A stretch of DNA of 36,992 nucleotides from NCBI GenBank assembly GCA_944322705.1, contig CALUPR010000005.1:1-36992 (forward strand), read 5' to 3'. The notes beneath the pieces were generated by a model, which saw nothing but the letters and a program-made list of their open reading frames with translations, did not search any database and was not told the origin of the DNA. Positions 1 to 35,966 of this stretch are shown piece after piece. This stretch comes from Candidatus Gastranaerophilales bacterium. GTDB lineage: Bacteria; Cyanobacteriota; Vampirovibrionia; Gastranaerophilales; Gastranaerophilaceae. The translations under genes were made by a program, and so were the position numbers. Numbering within the stretch: position 1 is the first letter of the stretch; each line of letters starts with the position of its first letter.

Positions 1-1128
1 GCCAAGAGGCAAAGAAGCGAAGTTAGTATCGTAAAAATTTTCCCTCTCTCGGGAGAGGGATTAAGAGAGAGGGTAAATTTAGAAGATAGGAATATAAGAA
101 TATATGAAGGCAGGCTATTTAGTGTAAATAATCTACAATCTTTTTCCGTCATTGCGGACAGGGAAGCAGATCCGCAATCGCAAGATATTTCTAAAACAAA
201 TCAGCCCTCACCCCAACCCTCTGCCATGGGAGAGGGTGCAAAACCGACTTATTCACCTATTAACCTATTCACTTATTCACCTTATAAAAAATCTGCATTC
301 ACCTTGGCTGAAGGTGCTACGCACGTAGCCCTGCCGGACAATCAACCCAGGTATGCCTTTAATCTTGCTGTAGCTCCTACGCACGTAGCCCATTTTGACA
401 ATACCCGTCGAGCCGCATTTACTCTCGCTGAGGTCTTAATCACCCTCGGTATAATCGGTGTTGTAGCCGCAATGACGATTTCTGTTTTATATACACAATA
501 TAAAGATATGGTTTTAAAACAGCAGTTTAAGAAAGCTTATTCTATAATACAGCAGGCATATCAAGATGTTTATGCTGATACCGGTTATAATTATGAGTGT
601 TATTATTGGGAAAAAAGACCTTATCCTGACATGAGTGCAGATGAGCAAAAACCTTCTGATTATATGGGAAGATTTGGTGAATGCTCTGAATTTACAAGCA
701 ATATTGAAAAACATTTAAATATTATAAAAAAATGTGAAAAAAACGCATTGCAAGAAGGATGTATCCCTAAATATACAGGTTGTGATACTTATTATAAACA
801 ACAAGATGACAGCCTGTCAGATGAAGAAGCATTACAGAAAGCTTCAGGCTGTGAGAGGTGGACACAAAGCAATTTAGAAAATAATTGTACTGCATATGTT
901 TTGTCCGACGGAACAATTATTTTGCTTTATGGTACGACTTTTAAACTTTTTGCTGTGGATATAAACGGGATGAAAGGTCCTAACAAATGGGGACATGATC
1001 TTTTTGCGTTTGGTTCAAAAGGAAGTATTGAAAAACCTTCTCCTTATGTTTCAATAAAGATATCATGTAATCCGACGGAAAAAGGCGGACGAAATACTCT
1101 TTATATGTGGTTGCATGCTTTTAAATAA
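1..1128 (+). CDS. Prepilin-like protein with long repeat-derived N-terminal extension (5' end runs off window)
   Basis: Type IV prepilin / type II pseudopilin family: the signature AFTLAEVLITLGIIG is followed by a hydrophobic helix, the substrate form of prepilin peptidase. The C-terminal part is Cys-rich and carries DINGMKGPN, a motif shared with the two other prepilins here. The first in-window start is the ATG at 226, but it has no Shine-Dalgarno and lies inside a repeat-like word. The frame is open with no stop from base 1, so the gene may begin upstream. Counting from 226, AFTLAE-like motifs lie at residues 24, 44 and 64, spaced exactly 20 residues by a 60-bp tandem unit. Only the third is followed by the hydrophobic helix, so it is the likely processing site (A|F). 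Family call is firm; the start is not. Confidence 0.72.
   Translation, partial: AKRQRSEVSIVKIFPLSGEGLRERVNLEDRNIRIYEGRLFSVNNLQSFSVIADREADPQSQDISKTNQPSPQPSAMGEGAKPTYSPINLFTYSPYKKSAFTLAEGATHVALPDNQPRYAFNLAVAPTHVAHFDNTRRAAFTLAEVLITLGIIGVVAAMTISVLYTQYKDMVLKQQFKKAYSIIQQAYQDVYADTGYNYECYYWEKRPYPDMSADEQKPSDYMGRFGECSEFTSNIEKHLNIIKKCEKNALQEGCIPKYTGCDTYYKQQDDSLSDEEALQKASGCERWTQSNLENNCTAYVLSDGTIILLYGTTFKLFAVDINGMKGPNKWGHDLFAFGSKGSIEKPSPYVSIKISCNPTEKGGRNTLYMWLHAFK
41..60. repeat. GC-rich inverted repeat (dispersed-repeat type)
   Basis: TCCCTCTC at 41-48 pairs with GAGAGGGA at 53-60 around a four-base loop, and a further GAGAGAGGG follows at 65-73. This kind of CCCTCTC/GAGAGGG word is a common dispersed repeat in many bacteria. 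A related word (CCCTC...GGGAGAGGG) recurs at 205-238 and contains the ATG at 226. Copy number in the genome cannot be judged from the window. Confidence 0.6.
295..414 (+). repeat. Two tandem 60-bp in-frame units of a prepilin leader
   Basis: Unit 1 is 295-354 and unit 2 is 355-414; the true prepilin signature starts at 415 with the same GCATTT-like opening. Each unit encodes 20 residues of the form AFxLAx-xTHVA-xxDNxxR. The best conserved parts are the palindromic core CTACGCACGTAG (317-328 and 377-388) and GACAAT. A similar unit precedes the AFTLAE motif of the minus-strand prepilin, with its palindrome at 31924-31937. Period and frame were read directly from the bases; the origin by tandem insertion or duplication is inference. 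Confidence 0.8.
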
Positions 1129-27272: not shown

Positions 27273-28268
27273 TTATACCATCAGCGCGATAAGAGCAGCA
27301 ACAACCATTGCGGGTCCAAAAGGCATATATGTCCTGTTTTCGGGATGTTCTCTTAACCCTTTAAATATAAGAATACAAGATGCAACTCCGAGTATTGCAA
27401 GAATAAAGGCACCGATTGTATAAACAATCATTGTATCAGGAGTTATAATTCTTAAATGCTGCAAAGCGTAAAAAGTAATTGCATATAAAACAAAAATACT
27501 AAAAGATATTAAAGTTTTCCAATCTTTTGTCTTAACAAGTCCCTTAATAAATATAGGAAGGAATATAACAACCTGTATTAATACTCCGAGTCCAAGTATA
27601 ATGACAAGAGTTTTCCATCCGAATATTGCCCCCAAACCTGCCGCAATAAAAGTATCGCCTTCTCCGAAAGCACGTGTACCGGCGACTAAATAGCCGGCTC
27701 TTGCACATATTTCTAAAATCAATATTCCGACTATTATACCCAGCAGTGAATTTGTTATAGGATTATTCAACAATATGTATTTGGTAAATTCCAGAGGCGT
27801 GCCTGTATAGTGCATTTGAGTTACGGCAGCAATTGTGACAATAATTGCGTATAAAAGCCCTAGTCCTACAAGGATATATGTATGAAGATCGTAAACGACT
27901 TTTTCTTTAATATCGGTTCCGGCTATAACTATGAAAATAGCGGCAACTGCCCAGACAAAAAGTGTTTGCAAACTAACACCGAATTTCATAAACAACAATG
28001 TGAAAATTATACCGGTTAGAAGTTCTACAATCGGATATTGAATACTTATATGTTCTTTACAGAAAGCGCATTTCCCTTTTAAGAAAATATAAGAAATTAC
28101 GGGTATATTATGCCACCATTTTAAAGGTGTTCCGCATTTAGGACATTTTGATGCAGGAAACACTATAGATTCTTCGCTTAAAGTTCTTAAAATTACTACG
28201 TTTAAAAAACTTCCGATGCATAAACCTGTTATAAATACAAAGGCTAATATTGCAATTAGTGCTCCCAT
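27273..28268 (-). CDS. Type IV prepilin peptidase (A24 family, PilD-like)
   Basis: An integral membrane aspartic protease that cleaves and N-methylates prepilins such as the three encoded here. The N-terminal segment CIGSFLNVVILRT leads to the cytoplasmic Cys domain CPKCGTPLKWWHNIP...CAFC (two CxxC pairs, as in PilD). Catalytic aspartates are in GTDIKEKVVYD and FGEGDTF. About eight hydrophobic segments; 331 residues, somewhat longer at the C-terminus than E. coli/Pseudomonas PilD. Ten bases downstream of the SigF-like gene on the same strand, so the two form an operon. Confidence 0.93.
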   Translation of the reverse strand: MGALIAILAFVFITGLCIGSFLNVVILRTLSEESIVFPASKCPKCGTPLKWWHNIPVISYIFLKGKCAFCKEHISIQYPIVELLTGIIFTLLFMKFGVSLQTLFVWAVAAIFIVIAGTDIKEKVVYDLHTYILVGLGLLYAIIVTIAAVTQMHYTGTPLEFTKYILLNNPITNSLLGIIVGILILEICARAGYLVAGTRAFGEGDTFIAAGLGAIFGWKTLVIILGLGVLIQVVIFLPIFIKGLVKTKDWKTLISFSIFVLYAITFYALQHLRIITPDTMIVYTIGAFILAILGVASCILIFKGLREHPENRTYMPFGPAMVVAALIALMV

Positions 28269-31184: not shown

Positions 31185-32027
31185 TTAATATTTCCATGGA
31201 TAATCTTCTTTAATTTCCCATCCGTCAAGCATTATAAGGTAGCCGCAAACCTGAGCATCCGAATTACCGGAACAATATCTCAAATAAGAATTTCTCGATG
31301 AGTTACCATAATTATGCATTGTAAATTTATTAGATGTAAGTTCAAGAGTTATATAAAAAACATCTTTTCCCACTATATTCGGTCCTTTAAAACCATTTGT
31401 ATCTACTGCAAAAATAATGTTGCGATATGCTCTTTCTATGCATTTACCGTCATCATCTCTTTTTGAACAGGCATCACCAATACCTATACGTAATAAAGTC
31501 CCGTTTCCGAGTGTAAGCCAATATCCTGTTTTCTCTTGTTTCTCTTTACTTACAGGCAAGTATATACCGTCATAGCCTATAGTCGCGGAGTTGTAGTATC
31601 CAATATCATCAGCTATTTTTACATTTGGCTTAAAATATTTTTCAACAAAATTAATTGTAACTTCCTTTGAATTAACAGTTGACGTGTCAGCCCCATAATT
31701 GTATCCGAAATCCCATCCGAAAACATCTCCGTTTTGAACCTGAGCTGCAGTTAATGCCTGACTGACAACAGAATATGCATGTTTTAATTTAGTTGCTGTT
31801 TGTTTATTTCTGTAGTCAGCAACAATTGACGGAATCGTCAAAGCAGCAACAATACCGATGATGCCAAGGGTGATTAAAACCTCAGCAAGAGTGAATGCAG
31901 CTCGACGGGTATTGTTGGAATGGGCTACGTGCGTAGCACGCTTGCAATAACAATTTTTCAAATGTGACGTGTCAAGCGGCACGCTTGCAGGGGGGGGGGC
32001 AATTGTCAGCTTCTTAATTCTTTCCAT
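31185..32027 (-). CDS. Prepilin-like protein with repeat-derived leader and poly-C tract
   Basis: 280 residues. Prepilin signature at 44-58 (AFTLAEVLITLGIIG), hydrophobic helix to ~residue 65, then a globular domain ending in DGWEIKEDYPWKY, with DTNGFKGPNIVGKDVF and several Cys. The 43-residue leader is far longer than usual. It contains ATHVAHSNNTRRA, the unit seen twice in the first prepilin, and a run of ten Cs encoding Ala-Pro-Pro-Pro (residues 10-13). AAGAGGAG before the ATG and TTGACA-17-AATAAT upstream make it a well-expressed gene. Slippage in the C tract would switch it off. Major versus minor pilin cannot be told. Confidence 0.85.
   Translation of the reverse strand: MERIKKLTIAPPPASVPLDTSHLKNCYCKRATHVAHSNNTRRAAFTLAEVLITLGIIGIVAALTIPSIVADYRNKQTATKLKHAYSVVSQALTAAQVQNGDVFGWDFGYNYGADTSTVNSKEVTINFVEKYFKPNVKIADDIGYYNSATIGYDGIYLPVSKEKQEKTGYWLTLGNGTLLRIGIGDACSKRDDDGKCIERAYRNIIFAVDTNGFKGPNIVGKDVFYITLELTSNKFTMHNYGNSSRNSYLRYCSGNSDAQVCGYLIMLDGWEIKEDYPWKY
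31990..31999. repeat. Ten-base homopolymer (G on +, C in the gene)
   Basis: Ten consecutive Gs lie 28-37 bases inside the 5' end of the minus-strand prepilin gene. In such AT-rich DNA this is striking and is the typical form of a slipped-strand phase-variation tract. An 11-bp direct repeat (GCACGCTTGCA at 31936-31946 and 31979-31989) borders it. Confidence 0.85.
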
Positions 32028-32062: not shown

Positions 32063-32091
32063 ATTATTTACGATTTTTCAGATTTTGTCAA
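32063..32091 (-). promoter_or_regulatory. Promoter of the second prepilin gene
   Basis: On the minus strand: TTGACA (32091-32086), 17-base spacer, AATAAT (32068-32063). A near-consensus sigma-70 promoter 36 bases before the start codon. Confidence 0.7.
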
Positions 32092-35111: not shown

Positions 35112-35966
35112 ATGAAAAAGAGAAATTTGTTTTTCAATGTTTTTGATTTAAAACATTTTGCTGCATTTACTCTGGCTGAGGTATTAATCACACTTGGTGT
35201 CATAGGTGTTGTTGCAGCACTTACTTTACCGGGAGTGATTGCTGATTATCAAAAAAAGCAGACAGTTGAACAGTTAAAAGTTGCAAAAAGTACCTTAGAG
35301 CAGGGTTTTCGTTTAATGCTTGCAACAGAAGGTGTTGATTCTTTAGCAGATACTGAATTTGTGAAATCTTTTAAAGGAACTGCTTATGAAGGCGGTGGGC
35401 TTGAAACACCTGAGGCAACGCCTATTTTGAAAAAATATTTTCCGGGTATTGATATTGTAGAGACTTCCGATAGATTATCTCAACTCAAGGAATATTATAG
35501 TGACTCAAATTATTTTGGTGCCAACTGGAATTTGCCAGACTGGTTTTTCCCTAATGGTTTTGCCGTAAATATAATTGTGAAAAAAACTCCTTACACAGGA
35601 CCTATTGACTGTGACACCATAAAAGCAAAGGGCGGTGCTTACTGTTCTTTAATGGTTGGCGGTTGGAACTATTTATATATTGATGTAAACGGTATTAAAG
35701 GACCTAACAGACATGGGGCTGATGTGTTTTATTTTGTTTTAACCGAGAATGGAATGTTATATCCAACCCATGATTCTAATTGGTCTATTTTTAATACCGG
35801 CGAACCTGCAACTGCCTGGTATATTTATAGTAATCCCGATAGACTTTGTCCTGACGGAGCTGTAGCATCTGCGCACGGAAGCAATTATGCCGCTTGTGCT
35901 GCCCGTATTATACATGACGGCTGGCAGATAAAGTATAACTGGAAAGGTGCCAAAAAAGTACTATAA
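35112..35966 (+). CDS. Prepilin-like protein, short-leader form
   Basis: 284 residues. The leader is only 18 residues (MKKRNLFFNV then FDLKHFAA) before FTLAEVLITLGVIG, i.e. the normal prepilin plan without repeat units. The hydrophobic helix continues to VVAALTLPG. The globular domain holds paired cysteines (DCDTIKAKGGAYC; CPDGAV...CAAR) and the shared DVNGIKGPNRHGADVFYF motif, and ends in IIHDGWQIKYNWKG, close to the DGWEIKEDYPWK end of the second prepilin. AAAGAGGG precedes the ATG. It is monocistronic, flanked by an extended -10 promoter and a strong terminator. Confidence 0.9.
   Translation: MKKRNLFFNVFDLKHFAAFTLAEVLITLGVIGVVAALTLPGVIADYQKKQTVEQLKVAKSTLEQGFRLMLATEGVDSLADTEFVKSFKGTAYEGGGLETPEATPILKKYFPGIDIVETSDRLSQLKEYYSDSNYFGANWNLPDWFFPNGFAVNIIVKKTPYTGPIDCDTIKAKGGAYCSLMVGGWNYLYIDVNGIKGPNRHGADVFYFVLTENGMLYPTHDSNWSIFNTGEPATAWYIYSNPDRLCPDGAVASAHGSNYAACAARIIHDGWQIKYNWKGAKKVL

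Follow-up and report, generated by a model that had tools for sequence, protein, structure and literature searches.

The open frame that leads into the first prepilin gene of the window (36,992 nucleotides, the whole of contig C5 of genome G000; 1,581,954 bases, 123 contigs) is very probably the translated leader of a prepilin gene subject to slipped-strand phase variation, and this gene appears to belong to a large set that is mostly OFF. The architecture of the loci, the frame statistics, the ON/OFF differences between paralogs and the strand rule were observed at the level of sequence. Slippage, cleavage and display on pili, we infer, would proceed as follows. Translation would start at an SD-linked ATG and reach a run of G or C, usually of 10, within about 10–35 codons, and the pilin frame would continue only at the right run length (in genomes like that of the window, mostly 11 or 8). 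Slipped-strand replication errors would add or remove a base, flipping the gene between ON and a short out-of-frame peptide. Prepilin peptidase would then cut off the leader between the run and the class III signal. Because the leader would be discarded, its sequence would be nearly free as long as it stayed open in frame, and it may in this way have acquired both tandem copies of the signature and dispersed palindromic repeats. With tens of these genes in a genome and most of them OFF, each cell would have a small, changing set of pilins.

The frame of the first prepilin gene contained no stop codon from base 1 until 1126–1128 (375 aa) and was open at its 5′ end, in agreement with the sequence-only reading, which had described it as open up to the signature at 415. 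At least 139 leader codons preceded the mature Phe (TTT, 418–420), and the signature read GCA↓TTT at 415–420. The product carried a class III signal with Glu5 and a hydrophobic helix, matched PF07963, and in a profile search matched known pilins over their N-terminal helix. Its leader of at least 139 residues exceeded the 6–26 residues of type IV prepilins; since the remaining signal is intact, we regard the long leader as a variant of this class and not as a reason for exclusion from it. The structure model of the mature pilin showed a mean pLDDT of 92.9 and a helix at residues 3–55. A Foldseek search of this model against the PDB returned no match with E ≤ 0.001, so the head domain is uninformative on function. 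The mature pilin had homologues in other genomes (66, 48, 48 and 45% identity), all with an SD, an ATG and a G9 or G10 run. Synteny through the downstream ATPase gene was looked for at the homologous loci and not found, and they are therefore treated as homologues and not as proven orthologues.

Features of the window and of the three closest leader copies (↓, predicted cleavage site)
Feature	Position	Strand	Remarks
First prepilin ORF	1–1128	+	5′ end cut by contig end; PF07963 over cut-off
Leader of first prepilin	1–417	+	
Mature pilin of first prepilin	418–1125	+	
True class III signal A↓FTLAEV	415–435	+	predicted cleavage between 417 and 418
Leader module common to other G-type prepilin leaders	1–60	+	C22, C28, C13, C103, C4, C106, C71
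Palindromic dispersed word CCCTCTC...GAGAGGG	36–79	+	also intergenic
Palindromic dispersed word GTCATTGCG...CGCAATCGCA	143–182	+	also intergenic
CCCTCACCCCAACCCTCTGCCATGGGAGAGGG word	205–236	+	carries non-conserved ATG at 226
Two tandem 60-nt units	295–414	+	each opens with a decoy prepilin motif (AFTLAE, AFNLAV) and holds CTACGCACGTAGCC
Prepilin peptidase	27273–28268	-	PF06750 + PF01478
Second tract-bearing prepilin	31185–32027	-	ATG 32027, leader 44 aa, A↓FTLAEV; complete, in frame (ON)
C10 tract of second prepilin	31990–31999	-	G10 on + strand
Promoter-like TTGACA-17-AATAAT (11/12)	32063–32091	-	upstream of second prepilin
Prepilin-like gene with ordinary short leader, without tract	35112–35966	+	PF07963 below its cut-off
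Tract of C22 leader copy	C22 9971–9980		base aligned with window base 1: 10033
Tract of C28 leader copy	C28 409–418		base aligned with window base 1: 356
Tract of C13 leader copy	C13 9030–9040		base aligned with window base 1: 8977

The prepilin peptidase encoded in the window was the sole PF06750 match in G000, and its presence supports the earlier proposal that this enzyme would remove the extension. The second prepilin gene of the window encoded a 280-aa product in frame, with an SD-like AGAGGAG between the promoter-like sequence and its ATG. Compared to its siblings on C95, C6 and C4, this gene looks like the product of an in-frame deletion between two GCTACGCACGTAG copies.

A protein search of G000 with the signature region returned 40 matches. 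The results showed that most of them had an upstream open frame that reached as far as a run of G or C some 10 bases long, and that just before the run lay a well-formed SD-linked ATG, usually in another frame. In a census of G/C tracts of 8 or more in the same genome, 31 of 37 were located between an SD plus ATG and a prepilin or its leader. When the tract ORFs were read with 0, 1 or 2 added bases, a full prepilin was obtained for one choice, and the out-of-frame loci as assembled gave peptides of 15–28 residues. Six prepilin loci of G000 were in frame (ON) and 18 were one base out (OFF); the remainder were cut by contig ends. The six other tracts of the census include those of a glycosyltransferase-like gene with C10 (L094, G000:C43:11406) and of an ORF resembling a secreted hydrolase with G10 (L090, G000:C4:11269); both genes are in frame as assembled and are probably further phase-variable surface genes. 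Glycosyltransferases are typical genes of contingency loci. A G14 run was also present near a contig end (G000:C95:4995–5008), with no in-frame prepilin found there.

In the three closest leader copies (C22, C28 and C13), the tract ended 52 nt upstream of the position equivalent to base 1. By alignment with these copies, and from the homologues in other genomes, the SD, ATG and G-tract of the first gene would be expected left of base 1, beyond the contig end. Such a tract would have been invisible to the sequence-only reading because the contig stops about 52 nt short of its expected site. A junction of the window with an orphan 5′ half at the end of C46 was considered and rejected, as the overlap was only 14 nt and lay within a repeated module. 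Contig ends inside tract-leader modules were seen for C45, C46, C66, C80, C91, C104, C119, C5, C39 and C31 of G000, which leaves some of the repertoire as separate orphan 5′ and 3′ halves.

Across the Gastranaerophilales we counted 259 loci, each with an SD, an ATG, a tract and a prepilin. Tract length was 10 in 178 loci, 11 in 41, 9 in 26 and 12 in 10, with a few longer, and lengths of 9–13 occurred with both ON and OFF states. The ON state was found in 30 of the 259 loci (12%), compared to one third for random frames (binomial P ~ 1e-15, ignoring shared ancestry), while 178 needed one base and 51 needed two to restore the frame. For the window's type of genome, the modal length of 10 was OFF and 11 was usually ON; the SIG30 type showed the reverse, with near-identical paralogs that were OFF at G11 and ON at G10. 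Similarly, two neighbouring copies in G065 carried G12 and G10 before identical sequence. In the related-species pair L236/L318, two bases beside the run differed in addition to run length. The mononucleotide runs are far longer than expected by chance, one base more or less toggles the frame, and close copies (paralogs) differ in run length and occupy both ON and OFF states. These paralog differences indicate that tract length varies in the DNA between near-identical genes and moves the frame. Against the phase-variation reading, the concentration of tracts at exactly 10 (178/259), with 88% of loci OFF, is more uniform than free drift would give. Since metagenomic assemblies report the majority length, a uniform 10 would be expected from fast switching around a mode of 10. 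Published rates for Campylobacter show an insertion bias below the mode and a deletion bias above it (PMC8224891). A second SD plus ATG six codons before the signal was present in 16 loci, 15 of them in G018; as it lies downstream of the tract, some genes may be expressed at any tract length. The G018 subfamily with this second SD plus ATG, which gives a conventional 6-residue leader, includes L131, L179, L181, L189, L191, L197, L239, L246–L251 and L254; its members may have two starts.

Tracts were then ordered along the contigs of G007 and G018 and two contigs of G000, which gave 84 adjacent pairs; the pairs used for the strand rule place the tract of the first gene at its inferred site. In all adjacent pairs of genes on opposite strands (33/33), the G-run lay on the same DNA strand, so that one gene of each pair used poly-G and the other poly-C (G007:C1–C3, G018:C11, G000:C4, and window positions 1 and 31990). 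The G-run kept to one strand along a replichore: the G strand switched only three times over the ordered contigs, and the switch in G018:C11 (758–823 kb) coincided with a change of sign in GC skew (760–800 kb). The strand of the G-run was the strand with positive GC skew. By the usual convention, the positive-skew strand is the leading strand. Because the G-run strand follows skew and not gene direction, these results point to replication and not to the ribosome or RNA polymerase. Alternatively, C-runs on that strand may be eroded by biased mutation, or two leader families that seldom invert may have been inherited.

The strand rule bears directly on programmed frameshifting, by which ribosomes shifting by −1, or RNA polymerase slipping, at G10 or C10 would yield a fixed fraction of prepilin from unchanged DNA. 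The need for exactly one added base in 178 of 259 loci corresponds to a −1 ribosomal shift, and a tract that is nearly always 10 would suit such a mechanism. However, the opposite shift would be needed at 51 loci and no shift at 30, tract length differs between paralogs, and the G-run follows the replication strand, so that the mRNAs hold either G10 or C10. We consider programmed frameshifting improbable on this evidence.

The leaders of 113 loci from three genomes contained 4 stops among 4,155 codons in the pilin frame and 727 among 8,084 in the two remaining frames, and all 4 pilin-frame stops came from one wrongly assigned tract that was not of a prepilin. Stops being nearly confined to the other frames, a chance open frame is excluded, and the earlier suggestion that the extension is translated almost certainly holds. 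Accordingly little credence remains for an untranslated, repeat-rich upstream region that is open by chance, with the prepilin starting at an internal codon. The words do occur elsewhere as intergenic repeats, and known prepilin leaders measure 6–26 aa (PMC4471445), but this account conflicts with the stop-free pilin frame between stop-rich neighbours and with the absence of an in-frame ATG between tract and signal in 192 of 259 leaders. In the window leader, the only start candidates were ATG 226 and a TTG, both without an SD link. The sequence-only reading had a repeat word supply ATG 226; the aligned leaders in C22, C13 and C28 have Ile at this position, so the ATG looks accidental and was rejected as the start. 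At nearly all sibling loci, the start was an SD-linked ATG upstream, with a G or C tract of 10–11 nt before the leader. The further idea of the sequence-only reading, that repeats were inserted upstream of the start and recruited as a leader, was not supported: the SD-linked ATG of the siblings lies upstream of the tract, so insertion of a repeat ahead of an existing start codon was rejected. Equally hard to sustain is an assembly artefact, with tracts truly one base longer and genes intact and always on: the assemblies come mostly from metagenomes and homopolymers are prone to error, but in-frame ten-base tracts occur in the same assembly (C59, C4:5651, C5:31990, C43 and C4:11269), and other species have G11 OFF and G10 ON.

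Measured from the upstream ATG, leaders were 17–200 aa long and exceeded 26 aa in 135 of 259 loci. The pooled pN/pS of sibling leaders was 0.57, a mild synonymous bias over 13 pairs that are not independent. The leader sequence itself is weakly constrained. Weak constraint, together with the different words found in relatives, fits a segment that is kept open yet discarded.

The repeat words of the leader were confirmed at 42–59 (CCCTCTCTCGGGAGAGGG), 148–156 (GTCATTGCG) and 205–236 (CCCTC...GGGAGAGGG, with the ATG at 226–228). A search of G000 with bases 1–294 gave 47 matches including self, that is, 46 further matches at E ≤ 1, and these fell in other prepilin leaders and in places free of ORFs. 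The words proposed earlier as a patchwork of dispersed, in-frame repeats are thus multi-copy, and the mosaic is supported. Bases 1–258 shared 89–93% identity with the leaders of three prepilin genes (C22, C28 and C13). ORF-free copies of the window's words were found on C67, C28, C16, C38, C29, C65, C59, C3 and C2, and the words at 36–79 and 143–182 recurred in places with neither an overlying ORF nor a nearby G/C tract. These copies outside ORFs show the words to be true dispersed palindromic repeats, of which the leader is a mosaic. GTCATTGCG by itself was rejected as a signal, since the window held 10 near-matches where 6 were expected; only the longer word of 36–40 nt was significant. The 60-nt unit occurred 0, 1 or 2 times at sibling loci, with similar units in other species (L121, L142, L149, L150, L157 and L350), and its palindromic word TGCTACGCACGTAGCC was also found outside prepilin leaders. 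The decoy motifs of these units lack a hydrophobic helix and are therefore unlikely to serve as pilin starts. In several leaders of G007, CHSEGAYPKESSQLL...KAGLLRQKSRNDRFG occupied the place where G000 has its own words, and would represent a different dispersed palindrome. Some relatives had short leaders with the same order of ATG, tract and prepilin, which indicates that the repeats are not essential to the design.

The arrangement resembles the contingency loci of Campylobacter jejuni and Neisseria, in which G/C runs of 9–13 lie in the 5′ part of a surface gene and one base shifts the frame; the modal length of such homopolymeric loci is near 9–10 (PMC8224891). Unlike C. jejuni, with 12–29 such genes (PMC8224891), the genomes studied here have tens to about 150 tracts per 2-Mb genome. 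They also depart from known contingency loci in that prepilins fill most of the set, most loci are OFF at the modal length, and poly-G or poly-C is used according to strand. As in type IV prepilins, A/G↓FTLAE is followed by a hydrophobic helix and PF07963 is matched, whereas the leaders are 17–200 aa and not 6–26 aa (PMC4471445). Rickettsia palindromic elements are likewise short dispersed palindromes read in frame within proteins (PMC10969869). Those elements measure about 150 bp and are found in unrelated genes, whereas here several words occur in the disposable leader of one family and in intergenic places. No single element family was found in frame in many unrelated genes: the in-frame word copies lay in prepilin leaders, and most other copies had no overlapping ORF of 80 aa. 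The switch is hence of a known kind, and what is new is the host group, the number of loci and their concentration in a single family, OFF as the modal state, leaders well above 6–26 aa that are built in part from dispersed palindromes, and the strand rule. Our literature search, which covered few subscription journals and no preprints, retrieved no earlier description and no paper pairing Gastranaerophilales with phase variation.

A broader proposal, to which we give even chances, is that throughout the family pilins are drawn in a lottery with OFF as the default. A genome would hold tens of prepilin genes, and some genomes more than 100 tracts, with each gene one base off at the modal length; poly-G or poly-C would be used by replication strand so that every tract has the same orientation for replication, and each cell would display a small random subset of pilins. 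If the phase-variation reading is right, one of the larger phase-variable repertoires belongs to a common lineage of the gut and is centred on one surface appendage, with a bearing on adhesion, phage resistance and immune exposure, and tens of prepilin genes per genome would be wrongly annotated at their 5′ ends. The strand rule would make hundreds of loci a natural experiment on fork direction and G/C slippage, and the leaders would illustrate how dispersed palindromes turn coding in a part of the protein that is thrown away.

In 24 genomes of the genus we counted between 0 and 151 tracts of 9 or more each, and in 15 genomes from other families of the order 0–6 each. Three genomes of the same genus (G013, G021 and G023) had 0–4 tracts each, compared to 20–150 in most; gain or loss of tracts along the tree would show the origin of the repertoire. 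Of 192 genomes of the order, 44 had a pattern joining G9 to the signature through 12–42 nt; with one exception these belonged to the same family, and they were spread over 10 genera. The reversed control pattern was found in 0 of the 192. Long leaders, such as those of G000, escape the G9 pattern, which hence undercounts. When GTDB r220 was scanned with the pattern, the informative titles among the matches listed were Gastranaerophilales, Candidatus Scatousia and melainabacterial or cyanobacterial MAGs; others were labelled only 'uncultured bacterium', and the exception among the matches listed was one group labelled 'Fusobacterium sp. CAG:439'. The latter (L305, L313, L314 and L361; FR9004xx) had tract-prepilin modules of the same kind and look like Gastranaerophilales under a wrong label.
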